DNA of 64,000 nucleotides from Ruminococcus sp. GTDB taxonomy: Bacteria > Bacillota > Clostridia > Oscillospirales > Ruminococcaceae. Both the position numbers and the translations under genes were made by a program. The notes beneath the pieces were generated by a model. That model did no database searches. It was given only the letters and a program-made list of their open reading frames with translations, and was not told where the DNA came from. Shown here piece after piece: positions 55,201 to 61,216 of this stretch. Location: positions 1 to 64,000 of the forward strand of contig JAFXDK010000068.1 in the NCBI GenBank assembly GCA_017521805.1. The letters run 5' to 3'. Numbering within the stretch: the first letter of the stretch is position 1; every line of letters begins with the position of its first letter.

Positions 55201-55542
55201 CAGTATGACTATAAAGGTAAAGGGACTGGCAAGATAGTAGCCGATAACTCCCTGATAGCCGCCTGAAAGATTTCGTGCCCAGCTGTAGAGGACGCTTTCG
55301 CCCTCCCAGAAGCAGCGGCGGATATTTTCGAAATAGTAGACGTACTGACCGTTAAGGTCGAGTGTCAGTACAGAACGCTCTCCGAAGGGATAAACTCCGA
55401 AGATAACGTAAGCGATGAATGTCAGCAGAGCCGGAATCAAGAAAGCGGCAATATAGTAAAGCGGCTTGAACTTGACATAGCGTGCAGGCTCATAAGCACA
55501 CGCATAATCAGGCTTTTTGCTGGCGGAAGTTGTTTTTATCAA
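52216..55542 (-). CDS. YfhO-family large membrane protein
   Basis: A 1108-residue protein with roughly a dozen membrane helices in the first 500 residues, a large extracytoplasmic C-terminal region (about 500-960, with VTINGESVEHLF before it and IPYEPGWTIKVDGKKVD near 880), a last helix (about 963-985), and a charged cytoplasmic tail. YfhO proteins are GT-C-like and linked to lipoteichoic acid glycosylation in some Firmicutes. The last 35 residues are almost only Asn and Lys. The start is TTG at 55542 with GGAGG 7 nt upstream, downstream of a TTGAAA-17-TATAAT promoter. It is monocistronic. Confidence 0.9.
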   Translation of the reverse strand: MIKTTSASKKPDYACAYEPARYVKFKPLYYIAAFLIPALLTFIAYVIFGVYPFGERSVLTLDLNGQYVYYFENIRRCFWEGESVLYSWARNLSGGYQGVIGYYLASPFTFIVILMPRSLIIEALMIMQICKVGACGVAFCAYAQNSKNVKPLQSVIFSTMYALMAYVSIQLIDPMWIDGPIFLPLIILGVEYLIDDGRKINYIIPLAIMFIANFYIGFMVAIFVALYFVYYLFFGAKRKFKGIGDYAFVCGRMVLATGVALMCSYIMIVPIYNALALGKFDFSEPDYSMKTMFNPIELLPTLFPNQYYSVNVDEGTRMYGRPEIYCGVLSFVLSVLYFFNKKITINRKIGHGLLLFVMFFSMWIKPLNMMWHGGQDPNWLPYRYSFLISFILVSMAAETFSKLDGYKMSIKAPMGVFGGIALLSFVFEALKETFNYNETDYKYVAINPYKETVTINGESVEHLFLGTLVFGVILSAIYLTFAYLISHTKSEKGRIVISVFLAGLVFFEAGYNIFDTIYKIDQEVYYSSRDSYSEIMSAPDIMEDLEAIDDGFYRAEKTYFRNVNDNQAYGLKGVSHSSSVMNARILTFLETLGYTTKSYESRYDGNTPLADSLLGIKYVIHDPSQFNPETDIRTLLSPHYNKVGTSTITKEGGNDQELEIYENPDALPIGFMADDDILRLSYLGNDNPFNSMNNFLSSMTGNTPDYTTLEPRPYFYRLQFDPVNDVELNECTVRDYNGQFCYDALPNAVDPTVRVHFTSQSEDNLYIYLKSDNQKQCNLWLSTTKNEETGEFEDFTGLGSYFDGYDNCIINLGSFPVGTEIELRMTIIQQDKTGANEFIMIKDYQFYYFDYDLFHEDIQKLKESPLVLNMDKTKENRIVGEVNAKDGQILYTSIPYEPGWTIKVDGKKVDQQFEEVITEDGMNLAVNNTNNKLGSVCILNAMLGLRLEPGTHTIEMTYAPPGFKAGVLLLILGIAAVIALWYFDRKNNPALLNKAEAKANWKKGIYTIPEPAVEEKKPVKIIKSKGAVAEVEFTSSEDEEFEDEDEEMEAAENKPEKKNSKGLAEELYGENSDSKKEKKQNNNNKNKNNSQKNNNNKNNQNKNKKKKK

Positions 55543-55623
55543 TGTTGTTCCTCCTTTTTGGGATATGGTAAATTATTGGTGCAGCAATAAAAAGCCATAA
55601 TTCCCTATCATATTATCCTCTTA

Positions 55624-55652
55624 ATTATACTATAAAACGGGGATTTTTTCAA
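55624..55652 (-). promoter_or_regulatory. Promoter of the YfhO-family gene
   Basis: On the minus strand: TTGAAA (55652-55647), 17 nt, TATAAT (55629-55624), about 80 nt before the TTG start. Confidence 0.85.
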
Positions 55653-55771
55653 GGGTATTCGATATTTTTCGATTAAATGCACAACCTGTACAATGATATA
55701 GCGAATAATACAGCAATTTAACCAAAATTTCTGTTTATTATCTTTGTCTGATGACATTTCACAAATTCATA

Positions 55772-55800
55772 TTGAAATCTCAATAGATATATGTTATAAT
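55772..55800 (+). promoter_or_regulatory. Promoter of the radical SAM/dockerin pair
   Basis: TTGAAA (55772-55777), 17 nt, TATAAT (55795-55800), 42 nt before the start at 55843. Confidence 0.85.
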
Positions 55801-55842
55801 ATAGGTGAAATATAGAGCTTTAAGGTGAAAGGGGTGATTCTT

Positions 55843-56823
55843 TTGGATTACACAATCAGCATAACGAACAAATGCAATCTGAAATGCAGTTACTGCTATG
55901 AAAGGCACCTGAATACAGAATACGGAAATATAAACGAAGAAACAAAGGTAAAAATTGCAGATTTCATAAATCGTCAGGGCGACGCAGGTATCGTTTATCT
56001 TTTCGGCGGAGAACCCCTGCTTTATAAGGACATTGTAAAGTATTACTGCGAAAACGTCAAAGCGAAGAAATTTGTAATCACAACAAACGGAACGCTTCTT
56101 GACGAAGAATTCGTAAAGTGGTGTGTTGAGAGAAAAGTTATTATAAATATGTCCCATGACGGCATAAAATGCACTGAACGGGGCGTTGATACAGCAATTC
56201 TTGACGCAAATCTGAAAATGCTGCTGAAATATCAGCCTGAAACTCTTGTACAGCTTGTGTATACGGAAGAAACACTCCCTGAGCTTTACAATAATGTATT
56301 ATATCTGAAAAATCTCGGAGTAAAAAAGGTATCAGCGGCAATGGACGCATTCCTTAATCCCGAAAATCCCGACAGCTTCGGCGATATTTTACGGGAGCAG
56401 TGGCGTAAAATTGCTGAAATCGAAGATTTATATATGTACGAGCTTGCTGTAAAAAAGAAAAACATCAAGGAAAATATACGGGGCATCTGCGAAATCTGCA
56501 AAAAGAAAGTGTTCATAAACTGGGACGGAAACTTTTATCCCTGTGTGCAGTTTCAGAACATAGCCGAATATCGCTGCGGAGATATTTTTGTTGGTATCAA
56601 AGCGGAAGAAGCAAGAAAAGCGCATCCCGATTATTCAATGGTATCGGAGAGATGCAATGGCTGTGAAATATTGAATTACTGCCATAATTCCTGCGCTTGC
56701 AGAAAAATGGCAACAACAGGCACGGTAAGAGATATTTCAGAAGCAGCCTGCATGGAAGAACAAGTGCATATTCTTACTGCACTTGAAATAATATCTAAAG
56801 AAAACGGAGGTAAGGAATCATGA
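55843..56823 (+). CDS. Radical SAM/SPASM domain enzyme, candidate peptide or protein maturase
   Basis: A 326-residue enzyme. The radical SAM cluster is CNLKCSYC (Cys11, Cys15, Cys18) right at the N-terminus; YLFGGEPLLY is the SAM-binding GGE motif. The C-terminal SPASM domain has Cys residues in GICEICKK, the GNFYPC element (Gx4C) and CNGCEILNYCHNSC, exactly the Cx2Cx5Cx3C pattern that holds auxiliary 4Fe-4S clusters. Such enzymes modify ribosomal peptides or proteins (thioethers, C-C links, epimerisation, decarboxylation). The TTG at 55843 is chosen because AAAGGGG ends 8 nt before it; a GTG six codons earlier is possible. The stop overlaps the next gene by ATGA, so that repetitive secreted protein is the likely substrate or partner. 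No ABC exporter or peptidase is adjacent. Confidence 0.88.
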   Translation: MDYTISITNKCNLKCSYCYERHLNTEYGNINEETKVKIADFINRQGDAGIVYLFGGEPLLYKDIVKYYCENVKAKKFVITTNGTLLDEEFVKWCVERKVIINMSHDGIKCTERGVDTAILDANLKMLLKYQPETLVQLVYTEETLPELYNNVLYLKNLGVKKVSAAMDAFLNPENPDSFGDILREQWRKIAEIEDLYMYELAVKKKNIKENIRGICEICKKKVFINWDGNFYPCVQFQNIAEYRCGDIFVGIKAEEARKAHPDYSMVSERCNGCEILNYCHNSCACRKMATTGTVRDISEAACMEEQVHILTALEIISKENGGKES

Positions 56824-58055
56824 GAAAATTCACAAAAGAGATAACAGCGCTTCTGGCTGCGGCGACTGTCAGTGCATCTGCCGGTGCAATTACAGCGTCA
56901 TCGGAAGAAATCGAAGCAACTGTAGGTGATATAGTTGCTCCTACAGAAGAATATCCGGCTGTAGACGGCGGTATGATGCCTCCCGACGACTACATTGAAC
57001 AGCCAGACACCACAGCAATTGCGGGCACATACACTACCACAACCACTACAACGACAACCACAATTCCGCCCCTTATGGGCACTTATACCACAAGCAAAGC
57101 TACAACAACGGTAACAACAACAGAGAATTTAACCACAACTACCCTTGTCGGCACTTATACTACATGCACAACAACGACAACTATACCGCCAACAGCAGGA
57201 GTTGACATGCCTTCTGATGACGACATTGAATTAACAATAGGCGATATGATGCCCCCTGATGACTACATTGAGCCGCCGACGGAGGAAGAACTTCCGCCAA
57301 CAGCAGGAGTTCCAATGCCCCCTGACAGCTATATCGAAACAACCACAACGACAACTGAAGAAATTCCTCCGATTATGGGAGGATTTCCCCTGCCCGACCC
57401 AGACGGAGATATAAACCTTGATGGAAAGTTCGGTATTGCAGATGTAGTTACAATTCAGAAATGGATGCTTGGCAAAAAGGATGTTGAAATTAAATACTGG
57501 GAAAATGCCGATTTATACAAAGACGGCAAGCTTGATGTATTTGATGTTTGTCTGATGAGAGAAAAGCTGATAAAAGATAACTTTATTGATAAGAAAAATA
57601 CTTTTCTTGAATTTCAGATAACCGAGAATGTAGAGAACGTGGATTTTTCGCAGTATAACAGAATCTACGGCTTAATGGGTGGAAAAGAATACTATGGCAA
57701 GGGATATTCAGCTGTCAAGGACGAGGACGGAAACGAAGTAAAGCCCGAGCATTATGTTATGTATACAATTACAGCTTATCCCGACTATGCTGACGGCGGA
57801 CAGTATATAACAAAAATTGAAATTACCGATCCGAATGTAATGGTACACGGTCTTACTGTTAAATCCTCATTTGAGGATTTTGAAGCAGTATTCAAGGCAA
57901 TGGGCTATGAAACATCTGTAACTGAACATGGCAGATATGTGCAGTATAATGCAAAAAACAAAGACGGAATATCCTACACTATCCATATATCAAACGAAGT
58001 TATAAAATTGACAATACAGGCAGAAGTAACAAATCGGGACAATATTCAGTATTAA
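56820..58055 (+). CDS. Secreted repetitive Thr-rich protein with internal dockerin, coupled to the radical SAM enzyme
   Basis: A 411-residue protein. Signal peptide 1-27. Residues 31-193 are low-complexity repeats of two mixed motifs: an MPPDDYIE type (52-60, 130-137, 143-151, 166-173) and an MGTYTT type (69-73, 87-91, 111-115), joined by Thr runs and PP(T/L/I)(A/M)G steps (83-87, 123-127, 159-163, 183-187). Residues 196-255 resemble a dockerin (DGDINLDGKFGIAD and ADLYKDGKLDVFD). Residues 262-411 are a domain I do not recognise. Only one Cys (116) lies in the repeats. Its ATG overlaps the radical SAM stop. It may be the protein modified by that enzyme; the motif repetition looks like multiple modification sites. 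Otherwise it is a surface linker protein. Confidence 0.85.
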   Translation: MRKFTKEITALLAAATVSASAGAITASSEEIEATVGDIVAPTEEYPAVDGGMMPPDDYIEQPDTTAIAGTYTTTTTTTTTTIPPLMGTYTTSKATTTVTTTENLTTTTLVGTYTTCTTTTTIPPTAGVDMPSDDDIELTIGDMMPPDDYIEPPTEEELPPTAGVPMPPDSYIETTTTTTEEIPPIMGGFPLPDPDGDINLDGKFGIADVVTIQKWMLGKKDVEIKYWENADLYKDGKLDVFDVCLMREKLIKDNFIDKKNTFLEFQITENVENVDFSQYNRIYGLMGGKEYYGKGYSAVKDEDGNEVKPEHYVMYTITAYPDYADGGQYITKIEITDPNVMVHGLTVKSSFEDFEAVFKAMGYETSVTEHGRYVQYNAKNKDGISYTIHISNEVIKLTIQAEVTNRDNIQY

Positions 58056-58170
58056 AATTGTATAACTATATATTGCAATTCTGTGTAGTACGTTGTAACA
58101 TCTTAAACTTTACTTTTTTATTATAATAAATACAAAAGGGTAATTTATCACCAAAGAGGAACACCTACGG

Positions 58171-58295
58171 GGCAAAAGGGAGGGAAAAACAAAACTGATA
58201 CAAAAGTCGGCATTTCCCTCCCTTTTTCCCCTACGGTTTTCCTCTCTGGACTCTCTTTTCCCTTTCCCCTTTTTCCCTCCCTTTGCCGACTTTTG
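58171..58295. repeat. Inverted and mirror repeats with a long pyrimidine tract
   Basis: CAAAAGTCGGCA (58201-58212) is the reverse complement of TGCCGACTTTTG (58284-58295). GGCAAAAGGGAGGGAAAAA (58171-58189) is complementary to the segment around 58269-58286. Between them 58213-58283 is almost all pyrimidine on the plus strand, with the mirror-symmetric TTTCCCTCCCTTT twice. No gene is supported. Confidence 0.7.
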
Positions 58296-58426
58296 ACGAG
58301 GGGGATTGTTGTATAAGAAAAAGGAAAGTCTTTTCATGCGTGTCAAGTGGTCTTTTCAAATGTTGTTTATTCAATTCTTCTATCTATTAAATTTCTGTTT
58401 CTATTAAATATAAAGTTTTAGGTAGT

Positions 58427-58455
58427 AACGGCGTATCTTCGGGTGCGCCGTTTTT
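58427..58455 (+). terminator. Terminator hairpin, copy of the guaB stem
   Basis: AACGGCG (58427-58433) with CGCCGTT (58446-58452), loop around TCTTCGGG, then TTTTT. It is the inverted form of the element at 33089-33120. It may end the transcript of the repetitive secreted protein gene, 370 nt downstream of the stop. Confidence 0.75.
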
Positions 58456-58467
58456 GCTTCAACCAAA

Positions 58468-58502
58468 AAGAAACGAGCCCTTGGAGTAGGGGCTCGTTTC
58501 TT
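58468..58502. repeat. Strong 13-bp hairpin
   Basis: AAGAAACGAGCCC (58468-58480) pairs with GGGCTCGTTTCTT (58490-58502) over a 9-nt loop; flanked by A- and T-rich sequence on both strands. Confidence 0.75.
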
Positions 58503-58526
58503 GTAAGGAGGTGGAGTATATGTTTG

Positions 58527-58604
58527 CAGGGAACCTCTAAAAAACTCCCTCACGGCGAACTTTCTATGAAATTTCGCTCGTGTTCCGGTTTTTAGAGAAC
58601 CCCT
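58527..58604. repeat. Long imperfect hairpin with CTCTAAAAA arms
   Basis: CAGGG...CTCTAAAAAAC (58527-58545) faces GTTTTTAGAG...CCCTG (58588-58604) around an inner stem (CGGCGAAC/GTTCCG-like). Similar arms occur at 42657-42685. Confidence 0.6.
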
Positions 58605-58635
58605 GTAGAAAATATCATAATAATAGATTCTGTCA

Positions 58636-58660
58636 GGCTTCGGAGGATATCTCCGAAGCC
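58636..58660. terminator. Hairpin beside the SPASM/SBP convergent gap
   Basis: GGCTTCGGAG (58636-58645) pairs perfectly with CTCCGAAGCC (58651-58660). Confidence 0.6.
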
Positions 58661-58666
58661 GCTTTA

Positions 58667-58783
58667 TTGTCATACAGGCTGTCGGATAAAAAATGTCAAT
58701 CGTGATGTCTCAATAAAATGTCTGAACAAGATGTCGTACAAAGATGTCACAATAGAATGTCATACAAGGCTGTCGATATAGAA
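58667..58783. repeat. Degenerate 13-bp tandem array (TGTC iterons)
   Basis: TGTC occurs at 58668, 58680, 58694, 58706, 58719, 58732, 58745, 58758 and 58771: spacings 12, 14, 12, 13, 13, 13, 13, 13. The common unit is about TGTCnnAnAARR. Not a multiple of three, so not coding. It ends 13 nt before the stop codon of the minus-strand lipoprotein gene. Confidence 0.75.
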
Positions 58784-58795
58784 CTTAACCTGTTA

Positions 58796-61216
58796 TCAGG
58801 ACTGTTCGCTTATGAGGATAGATACGCGGTTCTGGATTGTCTCTGCTGTTGCTTCGGCTGACTTGTCGCCCTTGAAGTATGCTTCTACTTCCTCGTTGAT
58901 TATGCTGTCAATATCATCATCGTAGTAATATGCACCGGGCTTTACATTGCTTATATATTCCTCAAGGAAGTCTCTTTCTTCCTGTGTAAGAGGCTTTACT
59001 ATTATTTCCTTGCCGCCGATATAGTAAGTGTTGTCATATTCGTGTTTTACACCGTCTGCGTCAGTGTAATACGGTTTTTCCATTGATTCATCAAGCTTTT
59101 TGGTAAATGCAGACTTGGTAGCAGGAATATAAAACATATGTTCCTTAGTCTGAGTTTCCTCACTGAACGATTTCGCGATGAAGTCCCAGCACGCTTCCTT
59201 GCAGTCAGAAGTTTCAAGAATTGCATATGACATTGAAGCGAATATTCTTGCACCTGTTCCGTTAGCAGTGGGATTTCCTACAAGAGTAATTTCATCGCCG
59301 AACTGAGCATGTTTCGCACGGGCATATTCACTGAAATCAGACATATACACTTCGGTGAGAAGTGCCTTATCGTTGAGAAGCGCAACCTCTGACTCCTCAT
59401 AATATTTGTTCCATTCCTCACTTGTTGCATTCTCCCAGTCAATTTCATCTCCCTCGCCGGGATTATCGAACTGATTGCAGAATTCCAGAACCTTTATAAA
59501 GTCGGGAGAATTGAAATTACAGGTAGCTTCATCGTAATTGATGAAATCGCTGTTTCCGTAAAGGAGTCTGCCAAACATATCCTGTTTTGAGTTGCCCATT
59601 GCAAATGGCTTCATTCCCTCGGGAAGATTGTTGCAGGTCTCGATAAATTCGTCAATAGTCCAGTTCTCCTTGTCGCAGAACTTTGTCTTACATGCAAGAG
59701 TGTTGATGTAGAACGAAGGAGCTAAAGTAGTAAGCTTTCCTTCAAATTCGCCTACTGCAAGAGCTGCGGGAACAAAATCATCTCTTGAAAGGGTTTCTTC
59801 ACTGTCAAGGAACTGGTAAAGATCAACAAGAGCACCCTTTCTTGAAAGGTTGCTGAAAAGTGATGTAGAGCCGGACATACAGATAATGTCAACGTCTTTT
59901 CCTGTAGCGATATCCTGTTTCAGCTGCTTAGAGGGAGAATTCAATTGCTTTTCGTTTTCTTCGTCCCATTCATAGTATTGGTTATAATCCTCAAGCTTTA
60001 TACGATATTCGCTGTTTGTCTTGTTGAATTCCTTTACACTTTCAAGAGTTTCCTGGTCACTGTACTCAACAACCATGTTGATAATCTTTACGTTTTCAAT
60101 CTCGGAAGCGTCACGCTTTGTAAGGCGATAGAGATTAACAGAGCCGTCTGTATAATTGCGCTCAACAATAATAAATTCACCATTATCAACAGGAAGCACG
60201 CTTGTAACATAATCGCCTGAAATGTCGGAATCCACCCAGTTGATAATCTCGTCAAGTGTTCCGTCTTCCTTTAAGCCGTAAAGTAATGTTGAGGTTGAAA
60301 GGTATAAGGTATAATCGCCTGAACCTGTCATAATAAAATTGAAATAGGAAATACTATCGTCAAATGTGACAACATCAGGAGAAATCGACATTGTTGCAGC
60401 GTCAAATTTTTTCAGTACCTCTTTGCCATCTTGGTTGGATGTAAATACAAAATTGCCGTTTGTATCTGTTCCGCGAGTGAAAATATAATCCTCCTCGTCG
60501 AAATCAAGTGGCTCTGAAATATTACCCTGATTGTCAACAGTTACATATATCATCTTCTCAGAACCGTTGATAGAGATAACAGTGTTTTCACCTATGGAGA
60601 AGCTTTCACCGAGATAAACATTGCCATTGGGGTTATATTCATTATCAGCGTATTTTTCAAGTCCCTTTATTTCGTTTTTAGAAACAACAGCGCCTGTAGC
60701 GTCAATTTCGTAAATAAAATGACTGACAGTTGCCGCCGCCTCCATTGCCTCGTAATCAAAGTTTTCGTAATCAAAGTCGGGGTCTTCATAATCAGGCAAT
60801 TCAAAATCACCGTAATCTGTGAATGAAACTATAGCAAAGATTCTTCCGCTTGGAGTAACTGAAAATCTTGCATTTGGAGAGCTGTTTTCAACGTTGCCGT
60901 AATCAAGTGTTATTTCCTCAAAGGTAAGAAATTCAAAATCTGTAATATAAGTCTTGGGGATATACTGACCGCCGGTTGTATCAAAACCCAAAGCAATGAT
61001 TTTACCTGTATCGCCGATAGGAATAAGCGAGTTTGCTTCCTTAAAAGGAAGCTCTGCTTCAAGCTCAATAGCCTTATAGGATTTCTCCATTATTTCCTGT
61101 ACCTGCGCGGAGTTATTTTCTTTATTGCTGTCTTTTTCTTTTTCACTGCATGATACAGCTGAAATCATGCATGTTAATGCCATAGCGCCTGCAAGTACTC
61201 TTTTTAATTTGTTCAT
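58796..61216 (-). CDS. Large lipoprotein: sensor-like N-terminal half, solute-binding-like C-terminal half
   Basis: An 806-residue protein with a lipoprotein signal ending at Cys23 (SAVSC). Residues about 60-370 look like a beta-rich, propeller-like region with repeated acidic loops (LPDYEDPDFDYENFDYEA). Residues about 385-800 resemble extracellular solute-binding proteins of ABC transporters (EYSDQETLESVKEFNKTNSEYRI opening split here, DIICMSGSTSLFSNLSRKGALVDLYQFLDSE region, then AWDF-like CWDFIAKSF). No permease is next to it. AAGGAG lies before the ATG. The 22-residue spacer before the propeller is charged. It could sense or deliver a ligand to an envelope complex. Confidence 0.78.
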   Translation of the reverse strand: MNKLKRVLAGAMALTCMISAVSCSEKEKDSNKENNSAQVQEIMEKSYKAIELEAELPFKEANSLIPIGDTGKIIALGFDTTGGQYIPKTYITDFEFLTFEEITLDYGNVENSSPNARFSVTPSGRIFAIVSFTDYGDFELPDYEDPDFDYENFDYEAMEAAATVSHFIYEIDATGAVVSKNEIKGLEKYADNEYNPNGNVYLGESFSIGENTVISINGSEKMIYVTVDNQGNISEPLDFDEEDYIFTRGTDTNGNFVFTSNQDGKEVLKKFDAATMSISPDVVTFDDSISYFNFIMTGSGDYTLYLSTSTLLYGLKEDGTLDEIINWVDSDISGDYVTSVLPVDNGEFIIVERNYTDGSVNLYRLTKRDASEIENVKIINMVVEYSDQETLESVKEFNKTNSEYRIKLEDYNQYYEWDEENEKQLNSPSKQLKQDIATGKDVDIICMSGSTSLFSNLSRKGALVDLYQFLDSEETLSRDDFVPAALAVGEFEGKLTTLAPSFYINTLACKTKFCDKENWTIDEFIETCNNLPEGMKPFAMGNSKQDMFGRLLYGNSDFINYDEATCNFNSPDFIKVLEFCNQFDNPGEGDEIDWENATSEEWNKYYEESEVALLNDKALLTEVYMSDFSEYARAKHAQFGDEITLVGNPTANGTGARIFASMSYAILETSDCKEACWDFIAKSFSEETQTKEHMFYIPATKSAFTKKLDESMEKPYYTDADGVKHEYDNTYYIGGKEIIVKPLTQEERDFLEEYISNVKPGAYYYDDDIDSIINEEVEAYFKGDKSAEATAETIQNRVSILISEQS

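Follow-up and report, generated by a model that had tools for sequence, protein, structure and literature searches.

What does a radical S-adenosylmethionine (SAM) enzyme do in a Ruminococcus sp. when its gene runs directly into that of a secreted, repetitive dockerin protein? The question is raised by positions 55,843 to 58,055 of a 64,000-nucleotide stretch of DNA (GenBank assembly GCA_017521805.1, contig JAFXDK010000068.1, positions 1 to 64,000 of the forward strand), which as a whole is referred to here as the window. A sequence-only reading of this DNA had proposed that the second protein, hereafter the partner, is modified by the enzyme before export. Our own reading, to which we assign a probability of about 0.5, is that the enzyme would read the partner's signal peptide, beginning MRKFTKEI, as a leader and would oxidise each x-G unit (a variable residue followed by Gly) of the repeat region before export by Sec. 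This figure spans the pairing, the leader and the site, with the oxidation as the weakest step. The features concerned are the following.

55843..56823, plus strand: SPASM radical SAM enzyme, 326 amino acids, start codon TTG, stop codon TGA at 56821-56823
55873..55896, plus strand: codons of CxxxCxxC (C11, C15, C18), the radical SAM cluster, invariant in 57 enzymes
56653..56694, plus strand: codons of the SPASM motif Cx2Cx5Cx3C (C271-C274-C280-C284), invariant in 57 enzymes
56820..56823, plus strand: ATGA, four-base overlap of the enzyme stop with the partner start, read from the sequence
56820..58055, plus strand: partner, a secreted repetitive dockerin protein of 411 amino acids and the proposed substrate, start codon ATG at 56820-56822
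56820..56903, plus strand: signal-peptide-like N-terminus, MRKFTKEI..L(L/I)A, proposed leader for the enzyme (signal-peptide end placed by eye)
56910..57404, plus strand: repeat region, residues 31-195, with nine x-G units as proposed modification sites
57405..57569, plus strand: type I dockerin, residues 196-250, Dockerin_1 at 25.0 bits (cut-off 22.9)
57600..58052, plus strand: C-terminal domain, residues 261-411, of unknown function and not present in every family member

The pair was found at 19 loci in a scan of named genomes, mostly of Ruminococcus. The strains R. flavefaciens ATCC 19208, MA2007, YL228 and XPD3002 carry it, as do two metagenome-assembled genomes labelled Oscillospiraceae and one labelled Alistipes; in the latter (L033) the enzyme is 76% identical to that of the window, which reflects either a binning error or transfer. 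Within the genus, 34 of the 125 genomes searched contain the enzyme (E ≤ 1e-40). A secreted MRKF-type repeat protein, sought as M[RK]K[FLY] within 400 bases, was the next open reading frame (ORF) after the enzyme in all 50 related loci (L006-L039 and L056-L071, some being the same genome from two collections, with 38 distinct partners). The sequence-only reading had held that enzymes lacking the repetitive protein would make the pairing coincidental, and no such case occurred in these 50 loci. It had also described the overlap of stop and start, which takes the same ATGA form in 29 of the related loci; 5 more junctions overlap in another way (34 overlapping in all), 14 have gaps of 2-19 bases and 2 have gaps of 93-94 bases. 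No other gene family that could act as a third component was present in more than 3 of 20 neighbourhoods. Because of ORF choice or filtering, the neighbourhood clustering missed one gene of the pair at four loci (the enzyme at L033, the partner at L027, L038 and L039), where both are in fact present. The partners themselves are diverged, with 30-54% identity to that of the window in 17 of the 18 aligned and 75% in the other one. Enzyme and partner are thus very probably a dedicated pair, and this part of the sequence-only reading was borne out, also as regards the dockerin, which scored over its cut-off.

The beginning of the partner is far more constant than the rest. In 39 partners (the 38 distinct sequences and the window's own) positions 1, 3, 4, 8 and 11 of MRKFTKEIxxLLA were kept without exception and positions 2, 5, 6, 7 and 13 in at least 36, positions 1-4 being partly conditioned by the M[RK]K[FLY] rule used to choose partners. 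When 89 partner homologues were collected without any leader rule, 70 of them began M[RK]KF.[KR][EQ]I, and the remaining 19 were mostly matches to the C-terminal or dockerin parts. At the DNA level a degenerate leader pattern was found in 16 of 99 relatives, exactly those 16 that have the enzyme. In the 125 genus genomes the MRKFTKEI pattern occurred in 33, all among the 34 with the enzyme, once in each and adjoining the enzyme; the exception (G158) reads MRKFTREI. The pattern was absent from the 91 genus genomes without the enzyme, and no second copy was matched in any of the 125. Linkage makes the co-occurrence of leader and enzyme partly automatic, so that the telling part is the absence of a second copy. 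Such constancy in a signal-peptide start that occurs next to the enzyme and nowhere else in these genomes suggests a leader used for recognition. The locus has the conserved leader and the variable-copy core beside an enzyme that are expected of pairs resembling ribosomally synthesised and post-translationally modified peptides (RiPPs).

The repeat unit of the partner was found to be an x-G core, L/T-x-G, with x mostly Ala, Val, Met, Ile or Glu. In the window the nine units have their Gly at residues 36, 50, 69, 87, 111, 127, 141, 163 and 187 (codon starts 56925, 56967, 57024, 57078, 57150, 57198, 57240, 57306 and 57378), and the repeat region contains hardly any Lys or Arg. The 39 partners hold about 354-356 such units at a median spacing of 17 residues. 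The number of units varies from 4 to 19 per partner while the core stays fixed, a pattern that the sequence-only reading had proposed to look for. Two positions before the Gly, Leu was enriched 6.4-fold, Phe 3.2-fold and Met 1.9-fold; directly before it, Ala was enriched 4.0-fold, Met 3.0-fold, Ile 2.1-fold and Val 1.8-fold; after it, Val, Asp, Gly and Thr were enriched. By count, the residue before the Gly in 356 units was Ala in 107, Val in 43, Met in 41, Ile in 39 and Glu in 37. The core motif was counted 94 times in the repeat regions, where 1000 composition shuffles gave 3.7 (sd 1.9, maximum 11), although it was learnt and counted on the same 39 partners and the two are not independent. 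At the DNA level the units are diverged repeats with 60-83% identity, so that the kept core is not simply the result of recent duplication. The stretches that had been noticed before, four MPPDDYIE-like and three MGTYTT-like copies, do exist; they are, however, not the conserved element but two kinds of tail behind the shared core (TAGVP-MPPDSYIE and LMG-TYTT), with PPD in 16 of the 39 partners as compared to at least four x-G units in every one of them. The x-G unit is probably the site of modification, as far as can be judged from such comparisons.

The enzyme was compared with Pfam and with relatives. It matched Radical_SAM at 60.6 bits and SPASM at 22.3 bits (cut-off 21.5), and the ORFs, coordinates and both cysteine motifs of the sequence-only reading (CxxxCxxC at residues 11-18 and Cx2Cx5Cx3C) proved right. 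In the comparison of 57 enzymes (39 near relatives and 18 of 20 distant candidates, two having been dropped by a length and edge filter) C216, C234, C286 and C303 were also invariant. The enzyme thus has the seven-cysteine SPASM set C216/234/271/274/280/284/303 together with CxxxCxxC and, as judged from these residues, is a complete SPASM radical SAM protein. Elsewhere in its own genome, radical SAM matches to it were weak (best 28.8 bits).

None of the named maturase families accommodates it. The best NCBIfam match, for this enzyme as well as for three distant sisters scanned, was the PapB ranthipeptide maturase family NF047865, with 113.6 bits for this enzyme where 340 is the cut-off. The cross-links made by PapB join Cys to Asp or Glu (PMC9413430); the Cys-x3-Asp/Glu repeats of the PapB substrate type do not fit here, Cys making up 0.6% of the repeat regions of the 39 partners. 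Scores were likewise far below cut-off for the SCIFF maturase TIGR03974 (65.9 bits, cut-off 425), the YhhB cyclophane model (45.1, cut-off 445) and the anaerobic sulfatase maturase (anSME) TIGR03942 (52.8 bits, cut-off 349.45). The anSME is an oxidase of Cys or Ser that modifies one such residue per protein in a fixed motif, whereas multi-site action at x-G is proposed here. The match to the SCIFF maturase CteB (5wgg) begins at CteB residue 94, and the part before it has no counterpart in the enzyme. FibroRumin (TIGR04136), which is named for Fibrobacter and Ruminococcus and which the sequence-only reading had singled out as the natural comparison, has to be given up as the family of the enzyme: it was outside the best 25 of 78 NCBIfam families, the 25th of which scored 41.4 bits, and its cut-off is 400. 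Its model of 458 positions has an extra N-terminal part, and matches to distant relatives start at model position 97; the enzyme, unlike this longer model, starts at its own radical SAM core. The GRRM maturase family (GRRM/OscB-type) was not among the best 25 of the 78 families either, its model not having been looked up alone.

The enzyme likely acts on its partner, and we infer that this action is a chemical modification. Coupled translation would bring the partner next to the enzyme, which would hold the signal peptide segment MRKFTKEITALLA as a leader. In each repeat, the x-G dyad would then be attacked by a radical at a backbone carbon; the residue before the Gly varies too widely for one side chain to be the target throughout, and backbone-carbon chemistry is therefore predicted. 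Because the enzyme has the full SPASM set and its closest solved relatives, CteB (thioether formation) and anSME, are oxidative, a two-electron oxidation (about -2 Da per unit) is preferred over epimerisation, although oxidation at x-G is a tentative assignment. Lacking any export signal, the iron-sulfur enzyme would work in the cytosol, so that modification would come before export. The modified chain would then be exported by Sec, and the exported stalk would dock via its dockerin on a cohesin-bearing scaffold and show the variable C-terminal domain where this is present.

A related arrangement was found in at least one other genus. Besides the window's own, 13 of 391 genomes of the class carried a related enzyme at E ≤ 1e-30, with 29-35% identity. 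A secreted lipoprotein stood upstream of this sister enzyme in 12 of the 13, though the contig of L097 includes no more than its end; in L087 it stands downstream of the enzyme, with one gene in between. In a second genus, whose named hits were Saccharofermentans sp. (80%) and Butyrivibrio sp. AE2032 (77%), the enzyme was accompanied by one to three lipoproteins with a KKPLYAIG-like leader at 26 of the 30 loci; of the four loci without them, two are at contig ends. Across 78 genomes of this genus the enzyme was present in 45, the leader pattern in 40 and both in 39. The lipoprotein repeats read LAGEV, LDGDV, LEGET and YAGDI; Leu was enriched 7.7-fold and Tyr 5.9-fold two positions before the Gly, and Ala 4.3-fold directly before it. 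An LxG-like core was present in 33 of 38 distinct lipoproteins. A motif learnt on one group was enriched in the other in both directions, with 9 occurrences against 1.3 (maximum 8) and 18 against 1.5 (maximum 7) in 1000 shuffles. Leader matches away from the enzyme contig were seen in G552, G555, G567, G571, G576, G582, G584, G590 and G614, which suggests extra, unlinked substrates in the lipoprotein family.

Other distant relatives adjoin another type of lipoprotein. In L086-L088 and L098 PapB-like enzymes stand beside lipoproteins with an HG.GRG..GC.SV.PP.FLSEEEA-like stretch, which are tandem paralogues in L086 and L088 and possibly represent, with these enzymes, a further enzyme-substrate system. 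The lipoproteins of L091 and L093 have no such stretch and that of L097 is cut. As the stretch occurs in some distant relatives and not in others, the wider enzyme family is not uniform.

Several other readings of the pair were considered. The tails of the window's units (DDYIE, DSYIE, GTYTT) would suit an enzyme that makes three-residue cyclophanes of the aromatic-x-x type at Tyr-Ile-Glu or Tyr-Thr-Thr, with the x-G core as a spacer, and relatives swap the Tyr for Trp or Phe (PPDEWIE, PPDDFIV), with [YWF]-x-[ED] in 33 of the 39 partners. The stricter [YWF][IT][ED] was nevertheless found in 19 of the 39, and an aromatic residue lies within 11 residues after the Gly in only 165 of 356 units. 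In the second genus [YWF]-x-[ED] was present in 16 of 38 lipoproteins as compared to 33 for the LxG-like core, and together with the low YhhB score this makes cyclophanes improbable. An epimerase that turns the residue before the Gly into a D-amino acid, with no change in mass, is also unlikely, if slightly less so, given the oxidative relatives named above. On a similar footing is modification elsewhere in the partner, at the Thr runs, Pro-Pro or the dockerin, with x-G as a structural linker feature. Thr (24%) and Pro (10%) do dominate the repeat region, and a scan of 19 partners detected Dockerin_1 in 18. Yet 13 of the 55 dockerin ORFs examined in the genome contain Thr-rich stretches, the window's partner included, and the enzyme lies beside one only; moreover, no dockerin was detected in 4 sister-family lipoproteins scanned, and none of the 38 second-genus lipoproteins has a Thr-rich stretch. 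The Thr runs had been pointed out in the sequence-only reading; they are present but not distinctive, and as a modification signal they were rejected as ordinary linkers of this genome. The two genes might finally be co-regulated neighbours, with the enzyme acting on another substrate, since its action on the partner is itself deduced. With the unbroken linkage, the lack of any other conserved neighbour in 20 neighbourhoods and the exclusive leader, we regard this as very improbable.

Oxidation of x-G units behind a signal-peptide leader has points of its own against it. The conserved linkage is evidence of partnership and not of a reaction, and modification before export requires that the signal peptide be kept back from Sec. 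The Gly may be a residue for recognition or flexibility and not the site. Thr two positions before the Gly is common (90 of 356 units) yet no more so than composition predicts, and some units read LGG or DGG. The motifs of the two groups overlap only in part (Leu at -2, Ala at -1), the count of 9 lies barely above the shuffle maximum of 8, and in 5 of the 38 distinct second-genus lipoproteins [LYIVM]-[ADEGMS]-G is absent altogether. In that genus the leader pattern occurs without the enzyme in one genome (G598) and the enzyme without the pattern in six, and in G582 and G614 the leader match is on another contig than the enzyme. Further invariant cysteines (C94, C110, C219 and C245) are restricted to the Ruminococcus group, so that the chemistry of the two enzyme groups may differ.

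The remainder of the partner places it among cellulosomal proteins. Its dockerin matched the dockerin chains 2mte and 1daq of the PDB (E 9e-4), and the window's genome gave 92 dockerin and 4 cohesin matches, which together point to a cellulosomal protein. As a control, 58 of the 92 dockerin places were sought and gave 55 distinct ORFs; PPxxG was present in one of them, the window's partner, in four copies, and the conserved leader in that same one. The C-terminal domain was rejected as the functional part, as it is absent from 23 of the 38 distinct partners (L016 and L020 of these being cut by a contig end; a fixed length was used to set where the dockerin ends), and in the remaining 15 it falls into four BLAST single-linkage groups. 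It matched no Pfam family, and its structure model (mean predicted local distance difference test score 69.7) had no PDB match at E ≤ 0.001, the best being a weak one to spermine synthase (E 0.029). The domain recurs on other proteins that look secreted or membrane-anchored (P0020-P0028, P0039 and P0061).

The surroundings of the pair are simple. An ORF of 1108 residues upstream and one of 806 residues downstream are both on the opposite strand, so that enzyme and partner stand alone as a pair. The enzyme start at TTG 55843 has an in-frame GTG upstream (55825), which is the longest-ORF start; across related loci the codon aligned with the TTG is ATG, TTG, GTG or CTG. Two candidate signals flank the genes, both as consensus matches only.

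55772..55800, plus strand: promoter-like site, TTGAAA, 17 nucleotides, TATAAT, with TG before the second hexamer (11 of 12 consensus positions)
58427..58452, plus strand: terminator-like hairpin downstream of the gene pair

Just 3' of the pair, within 58140-58310, lies a 99-nucleotide imperfect hairpin with 37-nucleotide arms that are 84% complementary. Partial copies of this hairpin lie at 12 other places of the genome, and at least 7 of these are near the end of a contig; this dispersed repeat may interrupt the assembly. An Rfam scan of 55500-59000 gave seven matches, which all fall on a single hairpin and stay far under their gathering scores. At 58705-58783, before the next gene, there is a short tandem repeat of about 13 nucleotides, ATGTCTCAATAAA-like, with about 4.4 copies in 58705-58761 followed by a 26-nucleotide period.

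Two described systems come close to the proposed one. TvgB is a SPASM/anSME-group radical SAM enzyme with a repetitive x-Gly partner, TvgA, in which the Val of TVGG repeats, preceding the Gly, becomes cyclopropylglycine with a loss of 2 Da per unit (PMC9062424). In TvgA this residue is Val, whereas here Ala is commonest (107 of 356) and Val, Met, Ile, Glu and Ser occur too; cyclopropylglycine therefore cannot be universal here, and a TvgB-type synthase, with Val or a branched aliphatic residue before the Gly in every unit, was rejected. TvgA moreover belongs to a five-gene cluster with transporter proteins, unlike the secreted dockerin partner with no conserved third gene. Bufferins and other precursors modified by multinuclear non-haem iron-dependent oxidative enzymes (MNIOs) share the Sec signal peptide, and some are very long and some lipoproteins; most are modified at Cys motifs by these iron enzymes, in contrast to a radical SAM enzyme at the proposed x-G. 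Preliminary results place the bufferin signal peptide in the recognition sequence, modified precursors with a signal peptide are described as rare for bacterial RiPPs, and how a precursor escapes Sec until it is modified is left open for MNIO systems (PMC12452194). In the open-licence literature we found nothing that joins radical SAM, dockerin and Ruminococcus and nothing on FibroRumin; to judge from titles and the openings of abstracts, articles containing both 'dockerin' and 'radical SAM' did so incidentally (C. thermocellum transcriptome and stress studies, a Klebsiella genome).

Taken over both groups, the odds seem to us evenly balanced that these pairs form a new class of radical SAM protein-maturation systems in at least two genera of Clostridia, in which the export signal would double as the leader and every Leu-Ala-Gly-like unit would be rewritten, on a dockerin stalk in Ruminococcus and on membrane lipoproteins in the Saccharofermentans-like group. 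The pair raises the question of how such a precursor avoids Sec until it is modified, and the tight leader rule and short x-G core make substrate, site and chemistry directly testable. Most of the known radical SAM peptide maturases produce small natural products. If the reading is true, the partner would be the first cellulosome component modified by a radical enzyme, and, with a protein-sized, exported cellulosome part as its substrate, such a pair would bring a new layer of chemistry to the breakdown of fibre in rumen and gut.
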